Positions 16,666-34,167 of a stretch of DNA of 64,000 nt are shown here, one piece after another. The notes beneath the pieces were generated by a model, which was not told the origin of the DNA, ran no database searches, and saw only the letters and a list, made by a program, of their open reading frames with translations. The translations under genes were made by a program, and so were the position numbers. The DNA comes from Paenibacillus azoreducens (lineage in GTDB: Bacteria; Bacillota; Bacilli; Paenibacillales; Paenibacillaceae): assembly GCF_021654775.1 (NCBI RefSeq), contig NZ_AP025343.1, positions 1,240,001-1,304,000 on the forward strand, written 5' to 3'. Numbering within the stretch: position 1 is the first letter of the stretch; each line of letters begins with the position of its first letter.

Positions 16666-16705
16666 ACAAAAGTACCGTTAAGCAAATATGAAATAGCACG
16701 TCTGT

Positions 16706-17209: not shown

Positions 17210-17296
17210 ATGATCGCTGAAATCCACAGCAAAATCTCAAGCTCTGGCAGTAACTTGGGCATGTTACCGCAATCTGAAAAAGGGATTTATATATAA
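17210..17296 (+). pseudogene. 28-codon N-terminal stub of a nuclease-like gene
   Basis: GGAGGG precedes ATG. MIAEIHSKISSSGSNL resembles the N-terminus of a PD-(D/E)XK family seen as 'MIAEIH-KISSSGSNL-DR-ED' (recalled from memory). After SGSNLGM the similarity is lost and the frame stops at 17296. Likely a truncated remnant. Confidence 0.3.
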
Positions 17297-17391
17297 TTTA
17301 AGCATCAGAAAGAGACGCGATAGAAGAATACGCCCAGAGGTTGATGAGAATTCCATCGGATGCCGATATTAAAACAAAAGGAGGTGGTATA

Positions 17392-17568
17392 ATGGATATT
17401 GCGGCTTTGTCTACTTCCATGAGTCAGGCGGCATTGGCTCAACAGGTAAGCCTATCGGTGCTCCGCATGGCTAAAGGCCAGGTGGAATTGCAAGGACAGG
17501 ATCTGGTCCAGATGATGGAAAAGAGCATTGATCCCAACTTGGGAAAACATATTGACGTTTCGGTGTGA
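17392..17568 (+). CDS. yjfB: YjfB family protein (putative motility-associated)
   Basis: 58 residues from ATG 17392 behind AAAGGAGGTGG; an in-frame TTG at 17341 is discarded. MDIAALSTSMSQAALAQQVSLSVLRMAKGQ, then a Gln-rich helix and DPNLGKHIDVSV, match the small YjfB family of Bacilli, often annotated as putative motility protein because of co-regulation with flagellar genes. No flagellar gene is nearby, so the genomic context does not help. Confidence 0.85.
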   Translation: MDIAALSTSMSQAALAQQVSLSVLRMAKGQVELQGQDLVQMMEKSIDPNLGKHIDVSV

Positions 17569-17665
17569 CCTTACTAAGAAAAATGGATTAACAGAGCACG
17601 CAGCTACTGCGTGTTCTTTTTGATTTCCCTCATTTTTGAGCTGGATAGCCATCATGGGCAACTAT

Positions 17666-17700
17666 GTTACGAAGTGAGTAAATTGGTAATGTATCTAAGG
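17666..17700. repeat. 35-bp direct repeat, copy 1
   Basis: Matches 17995-18029 with three differences. The core GTTACGAAGTGAGTA contains TTAC...GTAA half-sites, as in regulator operators. This copy marks the truncation point of the MFS fragment. Confidence 0.6.
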
Positions 17701-17827
17701 AGATGAAAGTTCCACTGGCCATCAACATACCCATCTCCGCTTTATTCGGCCCGATCTCCTCGAAGTAGAGCGGAAAGTAAGAGGAAATGATTGCAATAGT
17801 TCCATATAAGAAAAAGTTAAAAAACAT
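17690..17827 (-). pseudogene. MFS transporter N-terminal fragment
   Basis: Reads MFFNFFLYGTIAIISSYFPLYFEEIGPNKAEMGMLMASG, the first two helices of an MFS_1_like permease, then runs into a 35-bp repeat at 17666-17700 and ends. The rest of the gene is absent. Two C-terminal fragments of the same kind of permease lie at 5439 and 7206, so this region carries at least three pieces of such transporters. Confidence 0.6.
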
Positions 17828-18994: not shown

Positions 18995-20497
18995 TCATTG
19001 CGAAACGCCCTTCACAAAGAATAGTTTACTCTTGCGAATAAGTAATACTACTTTAACAATACCAATGCATAACGATAACAAGCAAAGGGTAAACATCAGA
19101 TGTCCAATGCCTGGTAAAAACGAGAAGACCATACTCCATGGAGCTAAGTAATTCTCTATGATGATTAGGATTGCAGCAGGAATAATGATGTTAAAGATAA
19201 GAAGACAGGTTATAAAAACAAAGATCCGAAAAGGACTGGTCTTACCTTTTTTACTCCATTTAAAGAGGTTGTAAATTGATATGCCCATTAAAGTTATGAT
19301 GCCTGAACAAATAAGGTCGATCACAACGTAGGTTCCGGATATGTTGGAAATCCCCTCTTGTGATGGTTCTTGACCCTTCATAATTTCATTAATTCCTGAT
19401 GCAAACATGCCGAGGTGACGACCGCGAACGAGATAATCTTGGGAGTTAATCAATACCACGATGCCCGTATCCCCATCCAGTATCATATCAGAGTGGAAGC
19501 TCTCTATATCCCCACTGTGATGAATGGTGTTACCGCCAATTTCCCATCCCATGCCGTAATAACCACTCACTGACGGAGCGTATGGCTGGTGCATTTGCGA
19601 GATACTTTCGGCAGACGCTATGGATGTATGACGAAACCTTCCATTATTGAGTTGGGCGATCAAATAATTTGCCATATCCTCTGCACTGGAAATGAGGTAG
19701 CCGGATGCAAGCAGGGACGGATTATCCGGCTGCTTCATAGGAACCATAAAGCCAAAGATGGATTGATATCCTGTGGCTAACCCCTCATTTTTTGCCTTTT
19801 GCGTAGAAGTGAAGCTATTTCTCATCTCCAAGGGTTTGAAAATATGGTTTTGAATATACTCGGAATAGGACTCATTGGAGACAGATTGAACAATTCCGCC
19901 AAGTATATCGTAATTTAAATTGGAATATTGAAATGTGGAGCCTACAGGTTCGGTTAGGGATGTGTGTTTCAGATGAACGATAAGCTCATCAATAGATGGA
20001 ATAGTGTTCGAGAATACGCGTCGGCCATCATAGGTGGATAATCCACTGACCTGATGCAAAAGATCCTTGACTAAAATCTTCCTAGACGCATCCTGATCGG
20101 CTAATCTAAAGTTCGGTAAATAGTTCTGTACAGGTGCATCCAGGTTGATTTTTCCCTGTTCAACCAGTTGCATCGTGGCCAAAGCCGTAAATGATTTGCT
20201 GCTTGAGCCTATAATAAAAGGAGTTTGAGGAGTAATCGGTTGCTGATTGGGACCGGAGATCCCATACCCTTTTAAGTAGACCACTTGCTCTCCCTTCACA
20301 ATTCCTACAGCAACACCTGGAATTTGAAGCTTGTTCATCAGAGATTCTACATAAGTATCGATTTTTGCTGTATGGGCGATAGTTTGCGCCGGGTTCGCAT
20401 GAACGTTATGCGTTTGCAGAGGTGTTAAAACATCACCTGTGAACATGATGAGTAGGATCATTACCAGTCTAAACATTAGGCTTCTTTTTTGCTCCAT
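18995..20497 (-). CDS. Serine hydrolase (beta-lactamase/PBP4* family) with C-terminal membrane domain
   Basis: 500 residues. A signal peptide (about 1-34) is followed by a class C-like hydrolase: catalytic Ser in SSSK at 98-101, YSN near 190, HSG near 325. These families hydrolyse D-amino-acyl bonds or esters and only some act on beta-lactams. After residue ~385 there are three to four membrane helices in place of the usual lipocalin-like tail, so the enzyme is held in the membrane with its active site outside. Convergent with the small membrane genes. Confidence 0.85.
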   Translation of the reverse strand: MEQKRSLMFRLVMILLIMFTGDVLTPLQTHNVHANPAQTIAHTAKIDTYVESLMNKLQIPGVAVGIVKGEQVVYLKGYGISGPNQQPITPQTPFIIGSSSKSFTALATMQLVEQGKINLDAPVQNYLPNFRLADQDASRKILVKDLLHQVSGLSTYDGRRVFSNTIPSIDELIVHLKHTSLTEPVGSTFQYSNLNYDILGGIVQSVSNESYSEYIQNHIFKPLEMRNSFTSTQKAKNEGLATGYQSIFGFMVPMKQPDNPSLLASGYLISSAEDMANYLIAQLNNGRFRHTSIASAESISQMHQPYAPSVSGYYGMGWEIGGNTIHHSGDIESFHSDMILDGDTGIVVLINSQDYLVRGRHLGMFASGINEIMKGQEPSQEGISNISGTYVVIDLICSGIITLMGISIYNLFKWSKKGKTSPFRIFVFITCLLIFNIIIPAAILIIIENYLAPWSMVFSFLPGIGHLMFTLCLLSLCIGIVKVVLLIRKSKLFFVKGVSQ

Positions 20498-21619: not shown

Positions 21620-22642
21620 TTACGTTGAACTGCGCACAACCAAACGGGTAGGCAAAATAACCTTCTTAGGCAGCAGCTGGTTTCCGTTTATTCTGTCTAT
21701 TAAGTTATCGACAGCGACCATACCAATTTCTTTGGTTGGCACATCGATCGTAGACAGCGGGGGGTTAGAATATTTGGATACCTCAATGTTGGACAGCCCT
21801 ATAACAGCCACTTCATTAGGAACGGAGATGTCGTTGTTATACAAGCCGTTGAGGGCAGCCATGGCCATTAAATCGCTGCCGACGAAGAAAGCGGTGGGAA
21901 GGTTCTTGGCTTGACATAAATGATTGATTTGTTCGATGCAGACCGTTTCATCCCACATGCAATCCATCACCCAATCGGGATTTACGGTTAATCCGGCAGC
22001 ATGCATGGTGGCATAGTAGCCTTGATAGCGGCGGCTGCCTTTCAAGTTGCCTCTTAATCCGCCTCCTCCGATATATCCAATATGGGTGTGCCCCTTTTCA
22101 ATGAGGTGGTTGACGGCCATCGAAGCAACATGGTAATGATCATAACCCACGTTATCGATATCCTCGCGTTCTGTATCAATCCCCACGATGTACGGCACCT
22201 GCTTGCGGATGTACTCATAGGTTTCGTTGTTCAAAGATTCCATGAGGATCAGACCGGTAATCGGTTCACTGAAGGTATTGAATAAGATTTTATTGTTATT
22301 CAGTTCAATACCGGTCCGAATAAAGTCAAGATTATACCCTGCGCTGAGCAAGCGTTCTTCCACGCCGGATAAGATCGACATGAAATAAGGATCATTGTAT
22401 TTATCTTTAGTCACGCTTAATACGCACCCGATTTTGATGTGTGACTTGCTTTTGGAATGATCTTTGGTTGAAACTTTTCGCTTGGGGCTTGAACTGATTT
22501 TATAGTTAAGCTGCGTAACGGCTTGCCACACTCTTTCCCTTGTTTCATCCGTGATTTTATATTTCGTATCATTGTTTAAAACTCTGGATACGGTGGCAGT
22601 GGATACATTGGCTAATTTGGCAACATCCCGAATCGTACTCAT
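21620..22642 (-). CDS. LacI-family transcriptional repressor
   Basis: 340 residues: N-terminal helix-turn-helix (STIRDVAKLANVSTATVSRVLNND, residues 2-25), hinge near 45-60, then a periplasmic-binding-protein-like sensor domain (IKIGCVLSVTKDKYNDPYFMSILSGVEE to the end). AAAGGAG before ATG. Divergent from the DUF4832 operon at 22990. The 347-bp gap holds two tandem pairs of GTTRCGT half-sites, so it most likely represses that operon and itself. The ligand is unknown but should be the sugar the operon handles. Confidence 0.92.
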   Translation of the reverse strand: MSTIRDVAKLANVSTATVSRVLNNDTKYKITDETRERVWQAVTQLNYKISSSPKRKVSTKDHSKSKSHIKIGCVLSVTKDKYNDPYFMSILSGVEERLLSAGYNLDFIRTGIELNNNKILFNTFSEPITGLILMESLNNETYEYIRKQVPYIVGIDTEREDIDNVGYDHYHVASMAVNHLIEKGHTHIGYIGGGGLRGNLKGSRRYQGYYATMHAAGLTVNPDWVMDCMWDETVCIEQINHLCQAKNLPTAFFVGSDLMAMAALNGLYNNDISVPNEVAVIGLSNIEVSKYSNPPLSTIDVPTKEIGMVAVDNLIDRINGNQLLPKKVILPTRLVVRSST

Positions 22643-22730
22643 CTATTGCACAATCTCCTTTTAGGTTACTAATTTAGAGTTTATAGGAATGTTACACTTC
22701 AAACAATAATTATCCTGCTTGTTATTTATT

Positions 22731-22752
22731 TGTTGCGTGAAATGTTGCGTGA
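22731..22752. promoter_or_regulatory. Tandem half-sites near lacI
   Basis: TGTTGCGTGA occurs twice, 12 bp apart (22731-22740, 22743-22752). With the pair at 22923 it suggests operator half-sites of the LacI-family protein. Confidence 0.4.
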
Positions 22753-22858
22753 TATTGTTTCGTTCTTACAGCTTACATGTGTTTACGGTTAAAATCAACC
22801 ATATCTTGTCCGTGTCGCGGAATGTAACATGAAATTTTACAATATTTTAAAATTAATG

Positions 22859-22886
22859 TTGCAAGATTGCGTACGTATGATATAAC
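22859..22886 (+). promoter_or_regulatory. Operon promoter candidate
   Basis: TTGCAA (22859-22864) and TATAAC (22881-22886), 16 bp apart, about 100 bp before the first operon gene. Confidence 0.45.
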
Positions 22887-22922
22887 ATGAAATCACTAAA
22901 CAAAATATTTGTTTTCGCGACT

Positions 22923-22944
22923 AATAACGTAACAATAACGTAAC
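22923..22944. promoter_or_regulatory. Perfect 11-bp tandem repeat, likely operator
   Basis: AATAACGTAAC twice in a row, directly downstream of the promoter candidate; its complement contains GTTACGT, related to the GTTGCGT pair at 22731 in opposite orientation. Confidence 0.5.
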
Positions 22945-22989
22945 AAAATACAATCTCTGATTCGTACATGGCAGGGAGCTGAAAAGAAC

Positions 22990-24354
22990 GTGAACAAAGC
23001 AGTGACGGTTTACCCATTGATATTAGACGACATGATTAGCAACCCAGGCATTGGTTTTACGGCAGCACCGGGGTTAATGGGGGACCCGGAGCGTATTTAT
23101 GACAATCGGGGGGAAGAGCAGGGAAAATATAAGTTCACGGAAGACAGCAAAACCTGCAACCATCCTGACAGCAAAGTGTATTTCTGCAACGTGCGCTGGC
23201 GGGACGTGGAGACGGCTCAAGGGGTGTACAACTGGGAAGTGCTGGAGGAAAAGCTGGACTACCCCAAATCGATCGGATGTACGGCAGTGGTTCGTTGTTC
23301 GCCCTATGCTTTAAGCGAAGAGGATGATATACCGGCATGGTTTCGGGCGGAATATCCGGAGGAACCCGACTTTCCCTTCTGGAGAGTAGACCCGAAGGAA
23401 ACGCCGTATGTGGCGTATTGGTCTGAATTTATTAGGGCATTTGCCGCACGGTTTGACGGGCACCCGGTCATCAGTTCGGTGGATTTGACGATTGTAGGGG
23501 CCTGGGGGGAAGGCGGGGGAACCGAGTTTTTAGACCCGGAGGCGATTCAGCAAATTACGGATGCCTACTTCGACGGGTTTAAAATCACGCCTCTTCAGGC
23601 GCTACTGCATGACTCGATGTCGATCCGGATCATCAAGGACCGTAAAGCCAAAGTGGGCTTTCGCGTCGATTGCTTGGGGGATATGGGAGGATTTCATGGC
23701 AAAGCGTGGTCGCATATGACCGATTTCTACCCCCAGAATATTCAGAATTTTAACATGGGCGATGCTTGGGAGAAGGCTCCGGTGCTGTTTGAAGCATGCT
23801 GGCATATGAATGACTGGTATCTGCAGGGCTGGGATATCGATTATATCATTCAAGAAACGTTGAAGTGGCATATTACCTCCTTTAACAACAAAGGGACGAT
23901 TGTTCCGGAACCGTGGAAAGAGAAAGTCAAGGCTTGGCTGAACAAGATGGGATACCGCTTCGAACTAAGGAAGTTTACGTATGACTCTGTCGTGAAGGCG
24001 GGGGGAGAGCTGGAAATCCGTGCTTTGTGGGCCAACGTGGGAGTGGCTCCGATCTATCATCGTTATCCGCTTGTGGTAAGGCTTATCGGCCATGATCAAA
24101 CGTATACGCTGCATAGCAGAGAAGATATTCGGGAATGGCTGCCGGACGAAGACATTGCCTGGGAGGAAAGCTTCGCTCTGCCGGGCGGAATGTCCGAAGG
24201 AGAGTATCGTTTGGAAATCGGCATCGAAACCGGCGTGAAAGAAATCGGAAATATCCGATTGGCGATCGAGGGATACACGCAAGGCTATTACCCGATGGGT
24301 AAGATCTTAGTTGAACGGAGGGAAGAAGGGAATGGAGAGGCAGCTAGATTTTAA
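22990..24354 (+). CDS. DUF4832 glycoside-hydrolase-like protein
   Basis: About 454 residues, cytoplasmic (no signal). The N-terminal ~320 residues look like a TIM barrel of the beta-galactosidase/GH-A type: VYFCNVRWRDVETAQGVYNWEVLEEKL, VVRCSPYAL, then IVGAWGEGGGTEF with a strand-end Glu suitable as acid/base. The C-terminal ~110 residues (FELRKFTYDSVVKAGGELEIRALWANVGVAPIY) are the beta-sandwich named DUF4832. GTG start behind GGGAGC. It is the first gene of the operon and its end overlaps the acyltransferase gene by 23 bp. The substrate is unknown; activity as a glycosidase is inferred from fold. Confidence 0.75.
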   Translation: MNKAVTVYPLILDDMISNPGIGFTAAPGLMGDPERIYDNRGEEQGKYKFTEDSKTCNHPDSKVYFCNVRWRDVETAQGVYNWEVLEEKLDYPKSIGCTAVVRCSPYALSEEDDIPAWFRAEYPEEPDFPFWRVDPKETPYVAYWSEFIRAFAARFDGHPVISSVDLTIVGAWGEGGGTEFLDPEAIQQITDAYFDGFKITPLQALLHDSMSIRIIKDRKAKVGFRVDCLGDMGGFHGKAWSHMTDFYPQNIQNFNMGDAWEKAPVLFEACWHMNDWYLQGWDIDYIIQETLKWHITSFNNKGTIVPEPWKEKVKAWLNKMGYRFELRKFTYDSVVKAGGELEIRALWANVGVAPIYHRYPLVVRLIGHDQTYTLHSREDIREWLPDEDIAWEESFALPGGMSEGEYRLEIGIETGVKEIGNIRLAIEGYTQGYYPMGKILVERREEGNGEAARF

Positions 24355-25639
24355 CGAGTGTATGGCCATCTGTAATTTTGATTATTTGCCTGAAGGGTTG
24401 GAAGCCAAATATAACCGCTATCATCCGGATGACAAGTCCCATCTCATTCCGCGCGATTTCCTGTCCGAACTCTTCGAGCAATACCAAATTCCCGAACATA
24501 CCCGGCAATGGATCATTCGTGGGATTGAGGAGATAGAAACTCATACCGTATTATTTCATTTCACCAAATTTTTAGTGGAGGACATGTGCTCTGCGCGCAA
24601 TCGCTGTGATGAGACCCACTATACCAATATGACTCCGGAATGCATGAACCAACACGGAGATTTATATTCATTTCTTTTGCTGCTGGCCTGTGTTGTCCCT
24701 TCCATGGAAATGCTGCAAAAACGTTCCGTACCCCAAGCGTACTATAAGCAAATCCCTCATCAGCCCCTGAAGCTTCAGTTGGAAAGAATGGTATCGCACG
24801 GCGATGCCAAGGTTCATGATTTTCCATGGGCGATGAATTTTTATACTTGCTCCATCTTTTTGTTGGACCGGTTTTATTTTATTCCATACCGGTTTGGGGA
24901 TCCATTTACCATGTTCCGCCATGTAAATACGCAAGAAGTGATTGCCCTTCGGCACGCGGGTGAAGAATTTCGCAGCGATGGACAACGAAATGGAATCAAT
25001 GATGTGTATGACCCGCATGGATGCTTCACTTCAGAATGGCTGGAGAACAGTGAATCGATCAGAGCCAACCGGATCAATCCGATGGGGTTCGTAGAAAGAG
25101 AAACAACGTCGATCTTAAAAAAGGAATGGGAACCGGCACTTCGGGAAGGGGATATGCTTTTAGCGCTGCACATTCCATCCGGGCCCGGATATACGCCGGA
25201 ACGGCTGAAGAATTCCATGTCCATGGCCATTGAATTCTATGATAAATATTTTCCGGAGTTGCCCATCAAAGGTTTCTGGAGCGCAAGCTGGCTTTATGAT
25301 ACCCGGTTATCGCTCATTTTGGACAACGAAAAAAGCAATATCGTCTGCGTTCAACGACAGTTCTATAATTATCCGACTCTGGAAGGGGACGGGATGCTGC
25401 GCTATGAAGTCTTTGGAGACCGAAACATCGATCCGGTCCGCATCCCCGGCGGATTTACAACCTCGCTGCAAAAAGCGGCTGCAGCCTATATGCAGACAGG
25501 CGCACGCTTTAACACGTTAAGCATGATTGTATTGAAGGAAGACATCGAACGGATCGGCAGCATGCCTTATATTACAGACGCAGATATGGAGCAATTCCAC
25601 AAGACCGTTGACAGCCATCTAAGGGAGGTAAGTGGATGA
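24332..25639 (+). CDS. NAT_N/GNAT_C acyltransferase-domain protein
   Basis: 435 residues from ATG 24332 (GGAGGG upstream). It resembles proteins annotated 'acyltransferase domain-containing', with an N-terminal helical NAT_N-like part (about 1-130) and a C-terminal GNAT-like part (ALREGDMLLALHIPSGPGYTPERLKNSMSMA, IKGFWSASWLYD, LEGDGMLRYEVFG). This family is known from natural-product N-acylation. In sugar operons its acceptor may be an amino or hydroxyl group of the imported sugar; this is inference. It overlaps both neighbours (23 bp and 4 bp), so translation is coupled with the two DUF4832 genes. Confidence 0.7.
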   Translation: MERQLDFNECMAICNFDYLPEGLEAKYNRYHPDDKSHLIPRDFLSELFEQYQIPEHTRQWIIRGIEEIETHTVLFHFTKFLVEDMCSARNRCDETHYTNMTPECMNQHGDLYSFLLLLACVVPSMEMLQKRSVPQAYYKQIPHQPLKLQLERMVSHGDAKVHDFPWAMNFYTCSIFLLDRFYFIPYRFGDPFTMFRHVNTQEVIALRHAGEEFRSDGQRNGINDVYDPHGCFTSEWLENSESIRANRINPMGFVERETTSILKKEWEPALREGDMLLALHIPSGPGYTPERLKNSMSMAIEFYDKYFPELPIKGFWSASWLYDTRLSLILDNEKSNIVCVQRQFYNYPTLEGDGMLRYEVFGDRNIDPVRIPGGFTTSLQKAAAAYMQTGARFNTLSMIVLKEDIERIGSMPYITDADMEQFHKTVDSHLREVSG

Positions 25640-26727
25640 GCCGATATTCGCTCGAAAACTACGAGAAGTATAAAACCGTAAAAATCCGGCCGGAGCCCTT
25701 ATCCCAAAAAAGTGATGTTTCAAACCACGGCCTATTCGAATATGTTGCCTTTTCGTGGAAAGAACTAGAGCCGGACCGAGGAGAATATAGGCTTGAAGGG
25801 ATTCAAGAAGCACTTAATACCGCAAACAATCCTACTCTAGTCCTGACACCGGACTTGCCTCGATGGGTCAAGGATGACGCCGATGATTGTTTTGCGGCTT
25901 TGGTCCGAAAAGTCGGGAGTTATATCGACGCGGACAGACGCCTTGCAGCCGTCGTGATTTCGACCTTGGCTGACAGCAAGGAAGAATGGAACGCTTATAT
26001 CGATTCTTTCGAAACGCAGACGCTGCTTGCCGACTTGCAGAACGATAGACTCATTCGGCATTTAAGAGAACGCAGCCGTGGATTCGGCCTGCTGGTCAAA
26101 TGCAGCGAGGAGAATTGGATCGAATGCTGCGAGGCTTTTGCCAGAAACCATCTGCAGAAGGTATGGAAGAGTTATCCTGTTGTCCTCCATGTGACTGATG
26201 ACGCTTGCGGTCCTCATAGCAGACGCGAGGCATATCGCTGGCATGCTGGCCTCTCCAACGTGAATATAGGGCTTGGATATAACCTGACTTTGCGCAGATT
26301 GACTTATCCGGAAACCGTATCCAGCCGCGGGAGTTTACCGCTGCGATTTTGGTTTGTCAACACGGGCAGTTCGAGAATTTATCGGAAATTTCAATTATGG
26401 GTGCAGCTAAAGCAGGGCGAGGTTTCCTATGAGCTTCCGCTGCTTGGGGGAACGGATTCATGGTTAACCGGGGATCTTGTTCATAACGAAATGATACCTT
26501 TGCAGGATATGCCGGCGGGTGAATATACGCTCAGTGTGGGACTCTTTTTCGAAGACCGTTCTTACATCCCGCTGAATATACGGAATCAACAACAAGATGG
26601 ATATTATGAGATGGGTACGATCCAAGTCGAAATCACCGATGAAGATCCGCTGATGAATATATGGGATTCGTACGATCCGGAAGGGTATTATCCATTGGAA
26701 GACCCTAAGCTTCCGGAAGCAGACTAG
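25636..26727 (+). CDS. Second, shorter DUF4832 protein
   Basis: 363 residues, ATGA overlap with the acyltransferase gene. It has the same C-terminal sandwich as the first operon protein (NLTLRRLTYPETVSSRGSLPLRFWFVNTGSSRIYRKF aligns with FELRKFTYDSVVKAGG...). The N-terminal barrel is reduced: FSWKELEPDRGEYRLEGIQEAL is kept, but the GAWGEGGG-like catalytic segment is not seen. It may be a non-catalytic partner or an enzyme with different residues. A 58-bp repeat (26735) follows. Confidence 0.7.
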   Translation: MSRYSLENYEKYKTVKIRPEPLSQKSDVSNHGLFEYVAFSWKELEPDRGEYRLEGIQEALNTANNPTLVLTPDLPRWVKDDADDCFAALVRKVGSYIDADRRLAAVVISTLADSKEEWNAYIDSFETQTLLADLQNDRLIRHLRERSRGFGLLVKCSEENWIECCEAFARNHLQKVWKSYPVVLHVTDDACGPHSRREAYRWHAGLSNVNIGLGYNLTLRRLTYPETVSSRGSLPLRFWFVNTGSSRIYRKFQLWVQLKQGEVSYELPLLGGTDSWLTGDLVHNEMIPLQDMPAGEYTLSVGLFFEDRSYIPLNIRNQQQDGYYEMGTIQVEITDEDPLMNIWDSYDPEGYYPLEDPKLPEAD

Positions 26728-26734
26728 TGGAAAT

Positions 26735-26792
26735 GAAAGAACATTTCACCCGGCTGCCCCCATCCGTATAAATGTTGGTTCAACTTATATAG
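26735..26792. repeat. 58-bp intergenic repeat, copy 1
   Basis: Begins GAAAGAACATTTCACCCGGC and ends TTGGTTCAACTTATATAG. A near-identical copy is at 48056-48114. Here it lies just upstream of the dehydrogenase gene. Confidence 0.65.
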
Positions 26793-26823
26793 GACAAATA
26801 CAAGTTCACTGGAGGTAATGGAT

Positions 26824-28083
26824 TTGAAATTAGCATTAATCGGCGCAGGACAACGAGGCATGATCTATACAAGACATGCTTACCAAAGCGAGGAGATTGT
26901 CGCGGTCGTTGAACCGGATGAAGGCAGAAGAAAGGCGGCGGCGGACGAGTTTCAGATTCCTCTGGAGAGACAATTCGAATCCGTAGACGAATTTTACCGG
27001 CTTGGTAAAATTTGCGATGCCGTTATTATTTCTTCCATGGATCGGGACCATTATGCGCAAACAATGGAAGCGCTTCATATCGGTTATGATATTTTGCTTG
27101 AAAAACCCATTTCGCCAAGTCCCGAAGAATGCTTGAAAATACAACAAAGAGCCAATGAAAAAGGCCGCAAAGTGATTGTATGCCATGTACTCAGATACAC
27201 GAATTTTTTTGCGGAGATCAAGAAAATCATCGATAGCGGCGAGCTCGGCAAAATCATCACCATTCAGCATAACGAGAACATCGGCAATTTCCACATGGCC
27301 CATTCCTTTGTAAGGGGCAATTGGAGAAGAAGCGATCTGGCGAGTCCGATCATGATGCAGAAGTCCTGCCATGACATGGATATTCTAGCCTGGCTGGTGG
27401 ATAGCGGGGCCAAACGAATCTCTTCCTATGGCAGCCTCGCTTATTTTAAAGAGGAAAACGCGCCGGCCGGCAGCGCCGAGCGATGCCTGGACTGCAAGGT
27501 GGCTGCGGACTGCCGTTTCGATGCCAGAAAAGCATATCTGCCTGTACGAGGGCAATGGCCGGCTACGGTCGTTTCGGCGGATCCGACGGAAGAAGGATTG
27601 CTTCAGGCGCTGGAAACGAGTCCGTACGGACGCTGCGTTTACCGGATGGACAATGATGTGTGCGATCATCAGGTGACCGTCATCGAGTTTAAAAACGGGG
27701 TCACGGCAACGTTTAATTTAAGCGGGTTTACCAATAAAATGCACCGCACGCTCAAAATCATGTGCGAACATGGAGAAATTCGCGCGGATGATTACTCGAA
27801 TATCATTGAAGTCACAAGGTTTAACTCCAATATGGCTGAGGCCAGCCAGCAAACGATCATTCGGCCGGCAGCCATGGGCGGCGGGCATCATGGCGGCGAT
27901 ACCGGTCTGATGAACGACTTTTTGGAAAATTTGGAGAAGGCCGATTTCAACAGCAGATCCTCCATTGACATGTCCGTCGAAAGTCATCTGATGGCTTATG
28001 CAGCGGAAGAGGCAAGGGTGACCGGCACGGTTATTGATCTTGATCTTCTCAAGGAGCAGCTTGAACATAGTGTTACGGCATAA
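26824..28083 (+). CDS. Gfo/Idh/MocA-family sugar dehydrogenase
   Basis: About 419 residues. GGAGGT at 26811-26816 leaves only one base before ATG 26818 but seven before TTG 26824, so TTG is the start. N-terminal Rossmann fold with ALIGAGQRG (NAD(P) binding), the family's EKPIS motif near residue 95, and a substrate domain with the conserved SCHDMDILAWL helix. An unusual insertion carries four cysteines (RCLDCKVAADCRFDARK plus a later GRCVY), suggesting a metal-binding site as in some family members with a ferredoxin-like insert. It probably oxidises the imported or de-acylated sugar. Confidence 0.88.
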   Translation: MKLALIGAGQRGMIYTRHAYQSEEIVAVVEPDEGRRKAAADEFQIPLERQFESVDEFYRLGKICDAVIISSMDRDHYAQTMEALHIGYDILLEKPISPSPEECLKIQQRANEKGRKVIVCHVLRYTNFFAEIKKIIDSGELGKIITIQHNENIGNFHMAHSFVRGNWRRSDLASPIMMQKSCHDMDILAWLVDSGAKRISSYGSLAYFKEENAPAGSAERCLDCKVAADCRFDARKAYLPVRGQWPATVVSADPTEEGLLQALETSPYGRCVYRMDNDVCDHQVTVIEFKNGVTATFNLSGFTNKMHRTLKIMCEHGEIRADDYSNIIEVTRFNSNMAEASQQTIIRPAAMGGGHHGGDTGLMNDFLENLEKADFNSRSSIDMSVESHLMAYAAEEARVTGTVIDLDLLKEQLEHSVTA

Positions 28084-28094
28084 TCGTTTAATTC

Positions 28095-28210
28095 AGGATT
28101 TTGCAAAATTCGATTCCGGCCGCTCCCGGGTCCAATATATAGACGAACTAAACCGTTTCATCCTATATATTGCTGATTGATAGCCGCTCTTTGGATTCTT
28201 GCAAAATCCT
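28095..28210 (+). promoter_or_regulatory. Nested inverted repeats between dehydrogenase and permease
   Basis: Outer arms AGGATTTTGCAA (28095-28106) and TTGCAAAATCCT (28199-28210) are perfect 12-bp complements; inner arms CAATATATAG (28133-28142) and CTATATATTG (28163-28172) are perfect 10-bp complements. A 116-nt two-level stem in the middle of an operon could stop, process or protect mRNA. Confidence 0.55.
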
Positions 28211-28238
28211 CAATTCACAATGCAAAGGTAGTGATGGA

Positions 28239-29165
28239 ATGAATCCAGTGGGTAAGGGGTTCCTATATGAAATAAAGAAAAACAGAATCTTGTATCTCAT
28301 GTGCGTGCCTGCTCTTATTATTCTGATCATGTTCTCCTATATCCCTTTTGCAGGCGTATGGATGGCATTTACCGATTTTAATGTCGTTGACGGCATCTTT
28401 GGCAGTAAATTTGTCGGTCTGGACAATTTTAAATACTTTTTTTCGGCGAACAGCATGGGCTGGAAGGTTACTTACAACACGTTATATATTAACTTTTTCA
28501 GCCTCATCTTAGGCATTATCATTCCGGTCAGCATCGCTATTTTCATCAATGAGATCCGGCATAAAGCCTACAAAAAGATTGCTCAAAGCATGATGTTTTT
28601 TCCCTATTTCATATCGTGGGTTGTCGTGGGAGCGATCCTGTACGGCATTTTCTCCACGGATGTGGGTGTTGCCAATCAAATTCTGAAGTTCTTTGGAGCG
28701 GATCCGATCAGTTGGTACTCGGAGCCGAAGTATTGGAAATGGATCATTATCTTGTCGAGCGTGTGGAAATGGAGTGGGTACAGTTCCATCATTTATATGG
28801 CGGCGATGGCTAACTTTGACGCGAGCTTATATGAAGCGGCCAAAGTCGACGGCGCCAGCAAACTCCAGCAAATCCTGCATTTAACCGTGCCCATGCTGAA
28901 ACCGACGATCATCGTCTTAAGCTTGCTGAGCATCGGACGGATCTTCTATGGCGACTTCGGCATGATTTACGGCATCGTCGGCAACAATCCGGTCCTGGTG
29001 GATGAGGTAACGGTCATCGATACGTATGTTTATCAGTCGATGCGTACGCTGGGATTTTCCTACTCTACGGCCATCGGGCTATTTCAGTCTTTGATGGGAT
29101 TGATCCTGATTACGGCTGCGAACCAATCTGCTAAGAAAATAAATGACGGAGAGGGTCTATTTTAA
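28239..29165 (+). CDS. ABC transporter permease, LplB type
   Basis: 308 residues from ATG 28239. Six membrane helices, starting with LMCVPALIILIMFSYIPFAGVWMAF, and the EAAKVDGASKLQQILHLTVPML loop that docks onto the ATPase (EAA motif). LplB/YtcP-type permeases import complex oligosaccharides and use a shared ATPase such as MsmX, which fits the absence of an ATPase gene here. Its stop overlaps the next start (TAATG). Confidence 0.93.
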   Translation: MNPVGKGFLYEIKKNRILYLMCVPALIILIMFSYIPFAGVWMAFTDFNVVDGIFGSKFVGLDNFKYFFSANSMGWKVTYNTLYINFFSLILGIIIPVSIAIFINEIRHKAYKKIAQSMMFFPYFISWVVVGAILYGIFSTDVGVANQILKFFGADPISWYSEPKYWKWIIILSSVWKWSGYSSIIYMAAMANFDASLYEAAKVDGASKLQQILHLTVPMLKPTIIVLSLLSIGRIFYGDFGMIYGIVGNNPVLVDEVTVIDTYVYQSMRTLGFSYSTAIGLFQSLMGLILITAANQSAKKINDGEGLF

Positions 29166-30061
29166 TGATGAAAAAAAATAGGTTGCTTGGCGATAGATTG
29201 GTGATCGGCGTAGCTTATGTTTTCATTGGCTTATTTGCGCTTATCTGTCTGTACCCTCTAATTTTAACCCTAAGCGTATCCTTTTCTTCAGAACAGGCGA
29301 TTGCGAGGAACGGATATTCGATTTTTCCTCTTAGCCCCAGCGTGGATACCTATAAATATATCTTTGTGAACAGCGGTATGAAAATATTGAAATCCTACGG
29401 GGTGACCATTTTTGTGACTGTTGTGGGAACGGCAGGCGCTTTGCTGATTACAAGCATGATTGCATTTTCTCTATCCATCAAAAAGCTGAGATACCGTAAC
29501 ACACTTGCCTTTATTTGTAACTTTACGATTATCTTTTCGGCTGGCTTAATCCCGTGGTACATCGTGAGCGTCAATTATTATGGACTGAAGAACAGTATTT
29601 TGGCCTTAATTCTTCCTTCCATATTTAGCGTGTGGAATATGTTTCTGCTGCGCACGTATTTTGCAAGCGTTTCCCCCGCTTTATATGAAGCTGCTGAGAT
29701 CGACGGGGCCAATTATTTTACGATTTATGTTAAGGTAGCGCTTCCATTAAGCAAGACCGCGCTGCTTACGGTTGGTTTGATGTATGCACTGCAATACTGG
29801 AATGATTGGTGGCATGCTCTGATCTTTGTGAATGATCGCGATTTATTTCCGCTGCAATATTATCTCTATAACATTTTGTCCAACGTCAATGCCATTAGTT
29901 CCGGACGCATTCCATCAGGGGCTTCAGGCAATATCACCTTGCCCGCTGAAACGGTGAAGATGGCGATTACGGTGATTACGATCGGACCGATCATTTTCCT
30001 TTTCCCTTACATTCAAAAATACTTCGTGCACGGGATCATGACCGGCGCAGTCAAGGAATAA
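29165..30061 (+). CDS. Carbohydrate ABC transporter permease, YtcP type
   Basis: 298 residues, six membrane helices, EAA motif YEAAEIDGANYFTIYVKVALPL. Starts with the A of the preceding stop codon, so translation is coupled. It forms the heterodimeric channel with the LplB-type protein. Confidence 0.93.
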   Translation: MMKKNRLLGDRLVIGVAYVFIGLFALICLYPLILTLSVSFSSEQAIARNGYSIFPLSPSVDTYKYIFVNSGMKILKSYGVTIFVTVVGTAGALLITSMIAFSLSIKKLRYRNTLAFICNFTIIFSAGLIPWYIVSVNYYGLKNSILALILPSIFSVWNMFLLRTYFASVSPALYEAAEIDGANYFTIYVKVALPLSKTALLTVGLMYALQYWNDWWHALIFVNDRDLFPLQYYLYNILSNVNAISSGRIPSGASGNITLPAETVKMAITVITIGPIIFLFPYIQKYFVHGIMTGAVKE

Positions 30062-30133
30062 ACGGTGTATGGTTACTGGCCGATCCAGGCTTTTAACATA
30101 GATTAACCATTTTATTAGGGAGGGTCATCATTC

Positions 30134-31603
30134 ATGAAAGCAAGGAAAATGCTTATCTTTTTGGTTTTATTGATTGCGTCCGTTTCGGTGATGGCAGGTT
30201 GCGGCAGCGACAAAAAGGAAGGAACAGAGAATGCCGCACTCAAAACCATCCGGATTTTGTACCCTGGTGAGGAAACGGATCGGATGAGCGAATTTCTAAA
30301 AAATGAATTTGCGGAAAAAATGGCTGCCGATCTTGGTTTGAAGGTAGAGGTTGTGTTTGTGCCGTGGGCCCAATATTGGGAGCAAAAAGATATTATGCTG
30401 GCCGCCAATGAACCGATCGATCTGTATTGGGATGGTCTCCCGGATCTTTCTACGATCGTGAACAAGAAGCAAGCGATGGCATTGGATGATTTAATCGAGA
30501 AATATGGTCAGGATATGTTAAAAGTGTTGCCGAAGGAACAGCTTCAAGGCGCAACGATTGACGGCAAGGTTTATGGCATTCCATCGGCGTACGCACCTTC
30601 CTCCGCCATGTATCAGCTGGTCGCCGTTCGTCAGGATATCCTCGAAGCCGTAGGGATGACCGACATCAAAACCGCCGATGATCTGAAAGAATTTGCAACC
30701 AAGGCGAAAGCCAAGTTCCCTGAAATGAAAGGGCCAGCCGACATTATTTTTAAACCGTTAACAAGGTATTTTGGCGATGAACAATATAACTGGATCGCCT
30801 CCGAGGATTTGGTCGTATTCGGGGAAGACAGCAAAAAAGCATATAGTTATTATGAATCAGAGGCTTTCCAGAAAGTAGCGAAGTTTAACCGTGAAATGTA
30901 TAAAGCCGGATTATACACGGAGGATCTGACCATTAAATACAATGAAAGAGACTCCCGCATGCAGACAGGTTTGTATTTATGGGTTGAAGGATCCGTGGGC
31001 AAGGAAATGGAAATCATTAATGCACTCAAAGCCAATGCACCGAACGCCAAAGTTAAAACGTACCTGTTAGCGGAGGATAAACCGCGTTATATTACGGCCA
31101 CGGGCGGAGAGGTTCTGGGCATACCCGTAAACGCTCCAAATCCTGAAGGTGCGATGAAGTTTATAAACTGGATTTATAAGTCCAAGGAAAATTATTTGTT
31201 TGCTCTCTATGGCGTCGAAGGCAAGGACTACGAAATTGTGGATGGAAGAATCAAAAAACTGACCTCTAACGAATTTTTCTATGAATGGATGTTTAGAAAC
31301 CAAAATTACCAAATGTTCGGGCCGGATGTGTCGCAAGAGTCCATCGATAAGTATAAGAGCTGGGATGACAAAGCTATACGATCCGCTTCACTCGGCTTCC
31401 GATTTAATAACGAGAAAGTCAAATCGATCGAAACGGCTCTGAAAGAAGTTACGGGCAAAGACTTGGCCGCTATACGTTCCGGTTTTGTGGACTTTGAAAC
31501 AGGGTATCCCAAGGCCATTGAGAAGCTGAAGAAAGCAGGCATTGATGAATATGTAGCCGAGGTGCAGCGTCAGTTGGACGAGTTTTTGGCTGGTAAAAAA
31601 TAA
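30134..31603 (+). CDS. Lipoprotein solute-binding protein of the ABC transporter
   Basis: 489 residues. Signal peptide ending in the lipobox VMAGC (Cys ~22), then a bilobal family 1-type sugar receptor. The length near 490 is typical of LipO-like receptors that bind oligosaccharides or uronates. GGGAGG precedes ATG. It is the last gene of the LacI-controlled operon. Confidence 0.92.
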   Translation: MKARKMLIFLVLLIASVSVMAGCGSDKKEGTENAALKTIRILYPGEETDRMSEFLKNEFAEKMAADLGLKVEVVFVPWAQYWEQKDIMLAANEPIDLYWDGLPDLSTIVNKKQAMALDDLIEKYGQDMLKVLPKEQLQGATIDGKVYGIPSAYAPSSAMYQLVAVRQDILEAVGMTDIKTADDLKEFATKAKAKFPEMKGPADIIFKPLTRYFGDEQYNWIASEDLVVFGEDSKKAYSYYESEAFQKVAKFNREMYKAGLYTEDLTIKYNERDSRMQTGLYLWVEGSVGKEMEIINALKANAPNAKVKTYLLAEDKPRYITATGGEVLGIPVNAPNPEGAMKFINWIYKSKENYLFALYGVEGKDYEIVDGRIKKLTSNEFFYEWMFRNQNYQMFGPDVSQESIDKYKSWDDKAIRSASLGFRFNNEKVKSIETALKEVTGKDLAAIRSGFVDFETGYPKAIEKLKKAGIDEYVAEVQRQLDEFLAGKK

Positions 31604-31676: not shown

Positions 31677-33017
31677 CTACCACTCCATCGCAACACGATG
31701 AACATCCCCTTGAGCCAGATCCTTCCCCAACACGACTTCCATCAGTTCAAGATCAGTAATTGCTTTTATTCCATGCTTGAATCCAGCTGTGATTTGTAAA
31801 ACATCGCCCGCCTGCAGTTTATATAGCCTACCTTCCATTAGGATCTCCGCGCTGCCCGTTACAATCGTCACGATTTCCTGCCGCTTCAGATGCCGGTGAT
31901 AGCTCGTATATTTTCCTTGGGTGAGTTTAACCCTCTTGATCATGACTTCCATTCCCGTTTCATCTTTCCAATAATTCAAGACCCGATAGGATCCCCATCT
32001 TTTCTCTTCATACATTGGAATCTGCGGTACATGTTCGAGCCTTTCCTTGATTTGATTGGCTTTATCCTTGTTAGCGATCAGGATGCCATCAGAACTTGCC
32101 GCAACGATGAGATCAGAGACGCCGATAATTTCAATAGGATAGGGAAGTTCGTTAATGAGATGGGTATTCGAGGAGTCATCCGAAATTCGCCCCGATCCAA
32201 TCACTTTGTTCTCGAAATGACCGCTGAGCGCCATCCAACTCCCCAAATCATTCCAATAGCCGTCATATCTCATGACAACAGCAGGCAGTGTGTGTTCCAC
32301 GACTTCCCGGTCGAAACTGGTATTGGCAAGATGTTCGTAATTAGCCAGCCAATGCTCAACTTGGGTCGGATGCCCCTTGTCCTTCAAATACGCCAGCATG
32401 AACTTCAAGGGGAATGCAAATATGCCGCAGTTCCACATCGCGTGATGCCCGATTAAGCGAGAGGCCGTTTGTTCGTTAGGCTTTTCTATGAATTGGCGGA
32501 TGAAAAAATATTCGTCATTCTCCTTGGGCAGAATTGGAACGATATAGCCGAACTGATCGGAAGGATGGGTAGGTTTTGTTCCGAGGAGAGCAAGATCTGC
32601 TTTAGAATGCAAAAGAACATCGGGAAAGCGAAGGAGCAGCCGGAAAAACGCGGTATCTGCGAAAGTGTCTACCGGAAGAATACAAACCGTTTCATTTGGA
32701 TCTGCTTGCAGTTTCTCATGAAGATAACTTACGGCATAGGCGACAGCTGTGAAGGTTCCTCTTTTATAGGGTTCGGCCAGGATCGGGATATGCTCGCCAA
32801 CATAGTTGCGCGTAATTTCCACTTGACTGTGATGGGTGACGATACATGTGGATTGAAGCAACCCCGCCTCATCCAATTGTCGGCATATCCGTTCGATCAT
32901 CGATTCTCTGACCCCTGCTTCGGATTTCAAAAGCTTAAGAAACACCTTGGAGCGAACCTCGTTGGATAAAGGCCACAGCCTTTTTCCGGATCCCCCGCAC
33001 AATAGTACAATGCGCAA
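31677..33017 (-). CDS. Mannose-1-phosphate guanylyltransferase-like, with C-terminal cupin
   Basis: 446 residues. Nucleotidyltransferase core: LLCGGSGKRLWPLS at the N-terminus, AEPYKRGTFTAVAYA, FGYIVPI, IEKPN and NCGIFAF. C-terminal cupin (from ~340, SYHRHLKRQEIVTIVTGSAEIL, LQAGDVLQITAGFKHGI) as in bifunctional ManC/AlgA proteins, but with substitutions in the usual isomerase metal site, so likely only GDP-mannose synthesis. Last of three minus-strand genes; it supplies the sugar donor for the glycosyltransferases upstream. Confidence 0.85.
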   Translation of the reverse strand: MRIVLLCGGSGKRLWPLSNEVRSKVFLKLLKSEAGVRESMIERICRQLDEAGLLQSTCIVTHHSQVEITRNYVGEHIPILAEPYKRGTFTAVAYAVSYLHEKLQADPNETVCILPVDTFADTAFFRLLLRFPDVLLHSKADLALLGTKPTHPSDQFGYIVPILPKENDEYFFIRQFIEKPNEQTASRLIGHHAMWNCGIFAFPLKFMLAYLKDKGHPTQVEHWLANYEHLANTSFDREVVEHTLPAVVMRYDGYWNDLGSWMALSGHFENKVIGSGRISDDSSNTHLINELPYPIEIIGVSDLIVAASSDGILIANKDKANQIKERLEHVPQIPMYEEKRWGSYRVLNYWKDETGMEVMIKRVKLTQGKYTSYHRHLKRQEIVTIVTGSAEILMEGRLYKLQAGDVLQITAGFKHGIKAITDLELMEVVLGKDLAQGDVHRVAMEW

Positions 33018-33057: not shown

Positions 33058-34167
33058 TCATTTCTTGGATCGAATGACTTCTTCAATCGCATGTTTCATG
33101 AATGCCCCGGCCCGATCCCAGGATAAATGAAACATATCCTTTCTGCCTTGGCGTCCTTTTTGTTTGCAAAGCCCGGGATTCTGGTACGCTTTCCTCATTG
33201 TTTTTTTCAAGCTGCCCAGATCCGGTTCCGCCCATAGTTGTCCCTTTTGCACAAACAGGTTGCTGAATTTTTTCGAAATGGCTCTGTTCATGCTGCTTGA
33301 CGGGCTCCTTAGCTGATACGGAATGAGGAATGAGTTGCTGTGCGTAAGAAAATCCATTTGCCCGCCCCAACTTGTGGTGATGACCGGTACGCCGCTCGCC
33401 AGCGCTTCCAGAAAAGGCAGCCCAACCCCCTCGCCACGAGTGGGGAGGACGAAAACATTGCCAAGCGTATACAAACCCTTAAGCTGGTTTTCACTGAGCC
33501 GGCGGCCGATAATGACAACGGGGGCTGTATCCTTTTGAATGCCCAATCTTTTTTTGTATTGCAGTATTTTTTGCTGAATCCATTTTTCGTTCTCATGTGC
33601 CGCATATCCGTTCGTTTTGATCACAAGCATGACGTTATCTTTAGAGGAAAACTCTTCCCAATATGCCCTTAAGAGGCCCTCCGGATTTTTGCGATGCTGG
33701 AAGCCAAATACGGACACGAATGTAAACCTGCCTGCCGCACCCGGCACAGACATCTTCTTATTGTTCGGATGAAACTCCTTGGTGTTTACGCCATGGGGAA
33801 CGACAAAAATCGGGACTTTCACGCCGCTGTTCCTTAGCGTTCCTTTATTCTGCCGGGAGGGGACGCAAACCGCGTCAAATTTGTTCATATGGGGAAGCCA
33901 GCCCTTGGGGATCCTGCTTGTTTCCCAAACGGTGTTCAAAATAATGAAATCATATACGCTGCGCTCTTTTTGCCATTGAATGCTGCTGGGAATATGGTGA
34001 TAAATCAGCACCTTTTTGCCTTGGACGCCGTTTTTGCGGTGGTTTGACGCTCCGATGCTAACGGCCACTCCCTGCCGCTTTAGTGCTTGCGCATACGCTC
34101 TGCTGGCACGGCCAAGCCCGCTTGCTTTGTGTACGGGTCCCTTCCAGTAGACATGATAGGGCTTCAT
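33058..34167 (-). CDS. Glycosyltransferase family 4 protein
   Basis: 369 residues of GT-B fold. The N-terminal acceptor domain has GLGRASRAYAQAL. The C-terminal donor domain has FTFVSVFGFQHRKNPEGLLRA, VVIIGRRLSENQLKGLY and VLPTRGEGVGLPFLEALASGVPVI, which contains the E-x7-E motif. It overlaps the preceding DUF6492 gene by 4 bp. GDP-mannose is a likely donor, given the next gene. Confidence 0.88.
   Translation of the reverse strand: MKPYHVYWKGPVHKASGLGRASRAYAQALKRQGVAVSIGASNHRKNGVQGKKVLIYHHIPSSIQWQKERSVYDFIILNTVWETSRIPKGWLPHMNKFDAVCVPSRQNKGTLRNSGVKVPIFVVPHGVNTKEFHPNNKKMSVPGAAGRFTFVSVFGFQHRKNPEGLLRAYWEEFSSKDNVMLVIKTNGYAAHENEKWIQQKILQYKKRLGIQKDTAPVVIIGRRLSENQLKGLYTLGNVFVLPTRGEGVGLPFLEALASGVPVITTSWGGQMDFLTHSNSFLIPYQLRSPSSSMNRAISKKFSNLFVQKGQLWAEPDLGSLKKTMRKAYQNPGLCKQKGRQGRKDMFHLSWDRAGAFMKHAIEEVIRSKK

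Follow-up and report, generated by a model that had tools for sequence, protein, structure and literature searches.

The acyltransferases Tcp24 and Dbv8 of the glycopeptide antibiotic clusters acylate a sugar amine on these antibiotics, and the NahK pathway of the Bifidobacteria handles lacto-/galacto-N-biose. NahK is reported to accept both GlcNAc and GalNAc (PMC6264712), and the human lysosome acetylates the alpha-glucosamine ends of heparan during its breakdown (PMC11357348). According to PMC12345266, Streptococcus intermedius SIR_1591, in which a TIM barrel is combined with a DUF4832 domain, dissolves aggregates of Pel, and Pel is an alpha-1,4-linked GalNAc/GalN polymer. These are the described systems nearest to an operon of the 64,000-nucleotide stretch of DNA analysed here (the window), on which no paper was found in the open-access literature. 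In our main reading, to which we assign a probability of about 0.47, this is a LacI-controlled Gram-positive locus that acetylates and then cleaves amino-sugar oligosaccharides, most likely those of alpha-linked galactosamine.

The operon, its control region and its conservation

The divergent LacI gene and the seven same-strand genes of the preliminary description are all present, the first three of the seven overlapping by 23 bp (24332-24354) and 4 bp (25636-25639).

21620..22642, minus strand: LacI-family regulator (Pfam LacI and Peripla_BP_3)
22859..22886, plus strand: putative operon promoter, TTGCAA-16 nt-TATAAC (read in the sequence and in a 16-way intergenic alignment)
22893..22904, plus strand: putative LacI operator TCACTAAACAAA, directly 3' of the promoter (aligned across relatives)
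22927..22945, plus strand: putative tandem operator half-sites, ACGTAACA-3 nt-ACGTAACA (alignment and word counts)
22990..24354, plus strand: D1, DUF4832 glycosidase candidate (GTG start; Pfam DUF4832, 58.6 bits, cut-off 29.2)
24332..25639, plus strand: AT, NAT_N/GNAT_C acyltransferase (ATG start, with TTG at 24311 as the alternative; Pfam NAT_N, 39.7 bits, cut-off 27.8; GNAT_C, 67.0 bits, cut-off 22.8)
25636..26727, plus strand: D2, putative DUF4832 pseudo-glycosidase (Pfam DUF4832, 33.4 bits, cut-off 29.2; invariant C-terminal tail)
26818..28083, plus strand: Gfo, Gfo/Idh/MocA-type NAD(P) enzyme (Pfam PF01408, 69.1 bits, cut-off 24; PF02894, 44.8 bits, cut-off 22.9; invariant Cys insert)
28170..29165, plus strand: LplB-like importer permease (Pfam BPD_transp_1)
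29165..30061, plus strand: YtcP-like importer permease (BPD_transp_1, 23.9 bits, below the cut-off of 26.4)
30134..31603, plus strand: sugar-binding receptor lipoprotein (Pfam SBP_bac_8 and DUF3502)

As also described before, members of GH, PL or CE families are missing, since none of these families reaches its Pfam cut-off in the eight proteins; Glyco_hydro_42 scores 15.7 bits on D1 (E 0.01, cut-off 21). D1 and D2 are the sole DUF4832 matches in the 7.3 Mb genome to which the window belongs.

The putative promoter is not among the sites of a consensus promoter scan, and a promoter/terminator scan shows no excess over shuffled sequences (20 promoter-like sites against 18.5 expected). The putative operator TCACTAAACAAA resembles the palindrome TTGTTTAGTAAACAA (or TTGTTTACTAAACAA) of the clostridial loci, and a search of the 7.3 Mb genome for the pattern ACGTAACAN{1,5}ACGTAACA gave a single match, at the tandem site 22927..22945. 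A plain scan of the intergenic regions for 16-bp palindromes found little; the putative operator emerged only from the alignment and the word counts.

The operon is genuine and has been conserved: AT has close relatives in 18 of 100 genomes of the genus and at 61 named loci, and the arrangement is more than chance because the gene set recurs across these 61 loci. AT is usually accompanied by a Gfo/Idh/MocA enzyme, an importer for sugars and a regulator, which is of the LacI or, in some cases, the AraC type. When D1, Gfo, the LplB-like permease and the receptor are counted at ≥50% identity, Gfo and the permease are each present in 57 of the 61 loci and the receptor in 54, the absences being at contig ends except for Gfo in L085, the permease in L092 and the receptor in L100. 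The YtcP-like permease is present in all 17 genus relatives, as is LacI, which at ≥40% identity is also found in 47 of the 61 wider loci.

D1 and D2 form a pair that can be detached from the rest. They are present in the same 34 of the 61 loci, being gained and lost jointly, and the AT tree shows five or more switches in the state of the pair; this tree has 61 rows (60 loci and the window; L112, where AT is cut by the contig end, is left out, and the better of the two ATs of L082 is used). The pair is missing from 27 of the 61 loci, several of which are short contigs where its absence is not firm, and from 4 of the 17 genus relatives, where AT, Gfo, the importer and the regulator are still present. 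The order D1-AT-D2 is preserved in 30 of the 34 loci bearing the pair. In the clostridial loci L090, L093, L103 and L105, D1 and D2 lie together downstream and AT adjoins Gfo, the two genes overlapping by 4 bp in two of these loci and being separated by 5 bp in the other two. The spacing varies from -23 to +53 bp between D1 and AT and from -38 to +16 bp between AT and D2, and overlaps of 23 and 4 bp are particular to the lineage. Distant DUF4832 genes (20-24%) are found in six loci, in L093 and L105 beside a close D1.

The DUF4832 proteins and the link with Pel

Residues E174 and E268 of D1 are kept in all 34 D1 sequences compared (33 loci and the window; the 187-residue D1 of L074, at a contig edge, is left out). 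Both positions are also common to the 18 other DUF4832 proteins in an alignment of 5 D1, these 18 proteins (one per locus, 7 of them Pel-linked) and 3 D2, outside which stands the DUF4832 protein of L138, which the query did not match. By this conservation, the two glutamates are the catalytic candidates of D1. A signal peptide is not visible when reading the sequence of D1, and its N-terminal part has the predicted TIM-barrel-like fold by which SIR_1591-like DUF4832 glycoside hydrolases are recognized. The predicted model is weak around both glutamates (pLDDT <55). Foldseek gives low TM-scores for it, with endoglycoceramidase and GH35 enzymes ranked first; in the VIA re-ranking of Foldseek's own list, the model is nearest to beta-amylases (first) and GH42. 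A comparison of the D1 profile with the sequences of the PDB gave no significant match.

For D2, the suggestion made earlier that its active-site segment is missing is borne out by the comparison of the D1 and D2 profiles (E 6e-36), in which D2 is gapped over the GAWGEGGGTEF segment of D1. The position of E174 is a gap in 35 of 35 D2 sequences and that of E268 is a glutamate in only one of the 35, and D2 is filed, on these grounds, as a non-catalytic DUF4832 relative. The tail motif YYPLxDP is found in all 33 D2 copies longer than 320 residues (of the 35 copies, those of L060 and L076, of ≤320 residues, are skipped) and in none of the 34 D1 sequences; a hand-picked alignment covers 19 of the 35 D2. 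The tail has a pLDDT of ~40 in the predicted model, for which Foldseek gives low TM-scores, with GH158 and GH3 ranked first.

A class sample of 299 genomes contains 16 other genomes that bear DUF4832; seven of them have a DUF4832 gene adjoining pelA/F/G, and in the remaining nine no pel genes were found nearby. Within the genus, PelG is above its cut-off in 10 of 100 genomes, and in 7 of these 10 a DUF4832 gene lies within 10 kb of it; two genomes belong to both counts. A Pel-linked protein can be aligned with D1 over its length, with 26% identity (E 5e-31) and with both glutamates in register. Recycling of self-made Pel is nevertheless ruled out, because none of the 18 operon genomes has PelG, and a GH114 depolymerase was rejected as a partner, GH114 being found in 0 of the 100 genus genomes. 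In 12 of the 18 operon genomes, as placed by coordinates, a gene next to lacI encodes a secreted-looking DUF4832 protein, and a long ORF lies directly beyond lacI in seven named loci (five scanned, one read fully). In the genome of the window this secreted gene is absent from a whole-genome DUF4832 search.

Amino-sugar genes of relatives and the proposed pathway

The motif of Gfo/Idh/MocA enzymes consists of the lysine of EKP and a D-x3-H pair. In a hand-picked alignment of 17 Gfo sequences, K96 and H185 are invariant, and all 17 have Gln instead of Asp at position 181; C223, C226, C232, C273 and C282 are equally invariant. In AT, H280 and P282 are invariant among 20 hand-picked sequences (the window and 19 of 120 listed relatives); literature on the catalytic residues of glycopeptide acyltransferases was not found.

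A homologue of the N-acetylhexosamine kinase NahK is present in 18 of the 38 clostridial or unclassified loci (18 of 61 overall) and in 0 of the 23 Paenibacillus/Cohnella/Bacillus loci; that of L088 scores 337 bits to a solved NahK. The operon of L108 continues into NahK, a ROK kinase, nagB and nagA, the latter two above their NCBIfam cut-offs, and has a GH3 gene beyond lacI. The operon of L110 continues into NahK, ROK, a nucleotidyltransferase, a Glucosamine_iso gene and an amidohydrolase gene. The core can do without D1, because operons such as these two have Gfo and AT with no DUF4832, GH31 or GH36 gene alongside. GalE is found in three loci and a GlmM-like mutase, below its cut-off, in three. 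GH31 is found in seven loci, that of L088 scoring 425 bits to a solved GH31 alpha-galactosidase, and a GH36 alpha-galactosidase in one, none of these being among the 34 loci with D1 and D2; neutral alpha-galactosides are also substrates of GH31 and GH36 members. A second nagA/nagB-like pair in the genome of the window lies among genes for GH38, Gfo and an importer (L163), and no tie to the operon was made.

An amino sugar as the substrate class is well supported by the gene context in Clostridia, and galactosamine is likely to be this amino sugar. It is more likely that the sugar is acylated here than that it arrives acylated. We infer each reaction of the pathway that follows, its substrate and the contact between D1 and D2. 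The substrate would be an alpha-1,4-galactosaminan that has lost part of its N-acetyl groups, Pel being an example, or else the galactosaminogalactan of fungi, from which an oligosaccharide with a free amino sugar would be imported by the lipoprotein and the two permeases. AT would transfer an acyl group from acyl-CoA, probably acetyl-CoA, onto the free amine, after which D1, as a cytosolic DUF4832 glycosidase, would cut the N-acetylated sugar. D2, a presumed dead copy, may bind D1 via its conserved tail and either help D1 to fold or hold the substrate. Gfo would oxidize or isomerize the released sugar, or may itself be an NAD-dependent glycosidase. The final steps in Clostridia could be made by N-acetylhexosamine 1-kinase, a nucleotidyltransferase, GalE, a GlmM-like mutase, NagA and NagB, which are not all in one locus; in Paenibacillus they would have to come from elsewhere. 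A more far-reaching version, which we hold as tentative and rather doubtful, is a bacterial acetylate-to-degrade pathway for alpha-galactosaminan, in which a cytosolic AT of the glycopeptide-antibiotic family would re-acetylate imported galactosamine oligosaccharides for cleavage by a DUF4832 glycosidase of a new family, itself an obligate heterodimer with its tail-docked dead paralogue, as the counterpart of the human HGSNAT step.

The NagA, NagB and GlmM-like genes of the relatives are GlcNAc-type enzymes, and this favours glycosides of the glucosamine type (resembling chitosan or heparan, or with 3-amino sugars), of which AT would re-acetylate the amine and NahK, NagA and NagB take the GlcNAc. 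The reported acceptance of GlcNAc by NahK (PMC6264712) and the same acetylation step on heparan in the human lysosome (PMC11357348) agree with this. We regard it as unlikely, since GalE and alpha-galactosidase-type GH31 and GH36 genes are found in sister operons and DUF4832 enzymes are tied to Pel.

The core could also handle a small aminated glycoside with no hydrolase, by 3-keto oxidation by Gfo or as an NAD-dependent glycosidase, with AT blocking the amine and D1 and D2 as add-ons for longer chains. Gfo and AT are adjacent in most loci that lack D1 and D2, with a 4-bp overlap in ten, the operons of L108 and L110 have no other glycosidase candidate, and a distant AT occurs with two Gfo genes and a xylose-isomerase-like gene. 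However, neither GH109 nor any other NAD-dependent (redox) glycosidase is named among the matches listed for Gfo, which leaves room for a distant relation, and the type of importer points to oligosaccharides. We consider this reading improbable.

In the preliminary description, AT and the two DUF4832 proteins act as a single unit. Its catabolic-looking unit, oligosaccharide import and DUF4832 glycosidase candidates are retained here, and, having been open to refutation if AT were never linked to DUF4832 genes, it survives because the two are linked in 34 of the 61 loci. A locked unit is not supported. As an obligate enzyme for a naturally acylated sugar it would suit the D1-AT-D2 order of 30 of the 34 pair-bearing loci and the overlaps in the window, but the AT operon occurs intact without the pair in 4 of 17 genus relatives and D1-D2 lie apart from AT in L090, L093, L103 and L105, which makes it highly improbable. 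Detoxification of an imported amino-sugar antibiotic by AT, which is kin of antibiotic acyltransferases and would act as amino sugars are commonly disarmed, by N-acylation, is the least probable of all, since the sugar-kinase, NagA/NagB and alpha-galactosidase-type partners and the LacI control point to catabolism.

If the acetylate-then-cleave reading is true, it gives a function to four orphan parts, namely a catabolic NAT_N/GNAT_C branch, cytosolic DUF4832 enzymes, a conserved pair of an enzyme and a dead enzyme and a Cys-rich Gfo subfamily. It would also be a route by which bacteria of soil and gut feed on the cationic polysaccharides of biofilms (Pel, and galactosaminogalactan of fungi), and a possible source of enzymes for taking such matrices apart. 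A thin search of the open-access literature gave no uptake pathway for Pel or galactosaminogalactan among the matches listed, and nothing relevant was found there for Paenibacillus with galactosaminogalactan.

Comparison with described systems

The operon resembles the Bifidobacterial NahK pathway in that its clostridial versions carry a NahK homologue, a nucleotidyltransferase-like gene and GalE, whereas the genome of the window gave no NahK match (one clostridial NahK query, in a search without a positive control); AT, Gfo and DUF4832 proteins are not known to take part in that pathway. AT shares with Tcp24 and Dbv8 the GNAT_C domain, by a 36-bit profile match over only ~120 C-terminal residues, and an LxLHxP segment. 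It differs from them in being ~90 residues longer than their solved chains and in belonging to a catabolic-looking sugar operon.

If our reading is right, the AT step would be analogous to that of HGSNAT (PMC11357348), in that a free sugar amine is acetylated so that degradation can continue; HGSNAT, however, is membrane-bound and belongs to another enzyme family, and homology is not claimed.

D1 is similar to the SIR_1591 type, when compared via the Pel-linked Paenibacillus counterparts rather than the sequence of SIR_1591 itself, in the order of a TIM barrel followed by DUF4832 (PMC12345266) and in a predicted beta-amylase/beta-galactosidase-like fold, and it shares both glutamate positions with the Pel-linked Paenibacillus proteins of L135/L136. 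SIR_1591 is extracellular and encoded in a biosynthesis cluster, whereas D1 has no visible signal peptide and has extra conserved segments and D2 as a partner.

Operon and module

Gene finding on the window (1,240,001-1,304,000 of a genome of 7,316,152 bases) recovers all eight genes of the operon with the coordinates and overlaps of the preliminary description. Profile searches assign the encoded proteins to LacI, DUF4832 (D1, the glycosidase candidate), NAT_N plus GNAT_C (AT, the predicted acyltransferase), DUF4832 (D2, the predicted pseudo-glycosidase), Gfo/Idh/MocA (Gfo), two permeases and a receptor with SBP_bac_8 and DUF3502 domains. Against NCBIfam models, all eight remain under the cut-off. 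A whole-genome search for DUF4832 finds D1 and D2 alone.

Relatives of AT with 74-91% identity are present in 17 of the other 99 genus genomes searched (18 of 100 when counting the window's own), and each is accompanied by LacI, Gfo, both permeases and the receptor. Any AT match is found in 35 of the 100, those beyond the 18 having at most 35% identity to part of AT. AT is located between D1 and D2 in 13 of the 17 relatives; the other four loci (L045, L047, L048 and L049) have neither D1 nor D2, with the remainder intact. In the draft locus L043 (same genome as L060), the D2, LplB and YtcP matches are in fragments, reflecting either assembly errors or decay.

Scanning named genomes with an AT alignment generates a wider set of 61 loci, of which Clostridia or unclassified Bacillota contribute 38 and records under the names Paenibacillus, Cohnella or Bacillus contribute 23. 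Gfo and LplB are each found in 57 of these and the receptor in 54 (each with at least 50% identity), LacI in 47 (at least 40% identity) and an AraC-type gene in seven, the gaps in partner genes being mostly at contig ends. D1 (at least 50% identity) and D2 co-occur in the same 34 loci, flanking AT in 30 of them and adjoining each other downstream of the receptor in L090, L093, L103 and L105. On the AT tree, the state of the pair requires six changes, at least five being forced by well-supported branches, and D1 and D2 have therefore been gained or lost together several times. D1 and D2 are a module, and AT, Gfo, the importer and the regulator are the core. The operon is a real, widespread and uncharacterised glycan-utilisation unit, of which no description was found in the open-access literature, covered mostly through listings. 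Its unusual traits are the predicted acylation step and the predicted pairing of an enzyme with a dead enzyme.

Putative operators and genes outside the operon

Past the putative promoter TTGCAA-16-TATAAC, the window has the following elements.

22893-22904: TYACTAAACA-type putative operator, just past the promoter
22927-22945: tandem ACGTAACA putative half-sites

LacI would bind at these putative sites, as suggested by their conservation, TYACTAAACA followed by ACGTAACA repeats being found in most Paenibacillus loci. In the intergenic alignment, two loci without D1/D2 (L063 and L066) retain the ACTAAACA site as well as the promoter, and their tandem half-sites are partly altered. Searching the genome finds the tandem pattern a single time, and the regulator thus appears to be local. 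On the lacI side, two TGTTGCGT half-sites (22731-22738 and 22743-22750) lie 12 bp apart, inverted relative to the tandem operator; these may serve lacI's own promoter. The palindrome TTGTTTAGTAAACAA or near forms precede the first gene in ten clostridial loci (TTGTTTACTAAACAA in L103), and in L108-L110 the comparison of intergenic regions reveals neither this palindrome nor the Paenibacillus motif.

The window also contains the following genes outside the operon, of which the ManC-like gene adjoins the operon in only one of the 17 genus relatives (L033, same genome as L053).

18995-20497 (-): serine hydrolase of the beta-lactamase fold, with hydrophobic stretches at its C-terminal end (class C profile 111.5 bits, far under the 415 cut-off)
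31677-33017 (-): gene for a ManC-like mannose-1-phosphate guanylyltransferase, transcribed towards the operon
33058-34167 (-): glycosyltransferase-like ORF behind the ManC-like gene

Substrate clues and other DUF4832 proteins

Of the 38 clostridial or unclassified loci, 18 encode a homologue of NahK (N-acetylhexosamine 1-kinase), and none of the 23 Paenibacillus, Cohnella or Bacillus loci does; the L088 homologue matches solved NahK with 337 bits, and NahK occurs together with D1/D2 in L077, L087 and L093. In the Butyrivibrio locus L108, the gene order is Gfo, AT, importer, NahK, ROK kinase, NagB and NagA, the latter two both above NCBIfam cut-offs. In L110 it is Gfo, AT, importer, NahK, ROK, a nucleotidyltransferase-like gene (also in L077, L087 and L102; the solved protein nearest to the L110 product carries no named function), Glucosamine_iso and amidohydrolase. 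GalE is present in L077, L079 and L082 (the L082 copy above cut-off), and a GlmM-like mutase, below its cut-off, in L089, L096 and L097. Such NahK/NagA/NagB-type partners point to an amino sugar as the substrate class. Clostridia supply the strongest evidence on the substrate, and NahK is missing from the Paenibacillus version. GH31 is found in seven loci, all without D1/D2, and GH36 in one; the one GH31 checked has its closest solved relatives among GH31 alpha-galactosidases (425 bits versus 218 for the next, MYORG). These partners, assigned like NahK by nearest relatives, may point to an alpha-galacto configuration.

A further DUF4832 protein is encoded, judged from coordinates, in 12 of the 18 operon genomes, including all four without D1/D2; the whole-genome DUF4832 search finds no such gene in the window's genome. 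As seen from AT, its gene sits past lacI, at a distance of 3-4 kb, and shares the lacI strand; the open frames span 664-726 residues. Secreted-looking examples (about 660 residues, directly beyond lacI) are:

L053:5037-7001 (-)
L055:5146-7161 (-)
L061:5102-7087 (-)
L063:6367-8346 (-)
L066:6491-8491 (-)

The single one translated in full has a signal-peptide-like N-terminal stretch and a Glu within HWAEFHTWP and SGGEF. These properties fit an outside depolymerase supplying the importer. Other gene sets observed are the following.

L137:4998-11435 (-), with 14914-17767 (+), another Paenibacillus: 2145-residue DUF4832 protein with SLH (S-layer), CBM_11 and Big_2, next to GH31 and a 43% Gfo relative
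L050:9469-13616 (-) and L051:9533-13687 (-): distant AT relative (about 27%) and two Gfo-like genes, plus, in L050, a xylose-isomerase-like TIM barrel gene
L163:773-9828, own genome at about 544-553 kb: row of GH38 alpha-mannosidase, two Gfo-like, isomerase-like, Glucosamine_iso and amidohydrolase genes

L137 probably encodes a similar type of system at the cell surface, and L163 is a second amino-sugar-like locus of the window's genome. L050 and L051 may encode another route for aminated sugars.

Proposed pathway and known systems

The oligosaccharide would be imported, N-acylated by AT and cleaved by D1 together with D2, after which the Gfo reaction and amino-sugar catabolism would follow. 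In the window's genome, nagA and nagB are outside the operon, at 1.80 Mb, and searching with one clostridial NahK gives no match. The weakest link in this mechanism is the reaction of Gfo. The closest solved relatives of Gfo among the matches listed are oxidoreductases, such as inositol dehydrogenases; five invariant cysteines are located in one insert region, and it has a Gln at the position where an Asp would be expected in this family. The 43% relative in L137 is encoded together with a GH31 and DUF4832 proteins.

A third clue to the substrate is the association of DUF4832 with Pel. DUF4832 is present in 17 genomes of a 299-genome Bacilli sample. When excluding the window's genome, pelA/F/G adjoin the DUF4832 gene in seven of 16, and the fetched stretch around it contains no pel genes in nine. 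In the genus, seven of the ten genomes with PelG have DUF4832 no more than 10 kb away from it, G039 and G097 being counted in both tallies. D1 aligns over its full length with a Pel-linked Paenibacillus protein (26% identity; profile E 7e-37). As described in PMC12345266, SIR_1591, a DUF4832 enzyme of the Streptococcus intermedius Pel operon, breaks up Pel aggregates, and the polymer is rich in GalNAc; DUF4832 adjoining pel genes is an earlier observation, according to PMC7112168. The proposed AT step, acetylating before degradation, would also resemble heparan breakdown in the human lysosome, where alpha-glucosamine ends need acetylation prior to breakdown, as stated in PMC11357348.
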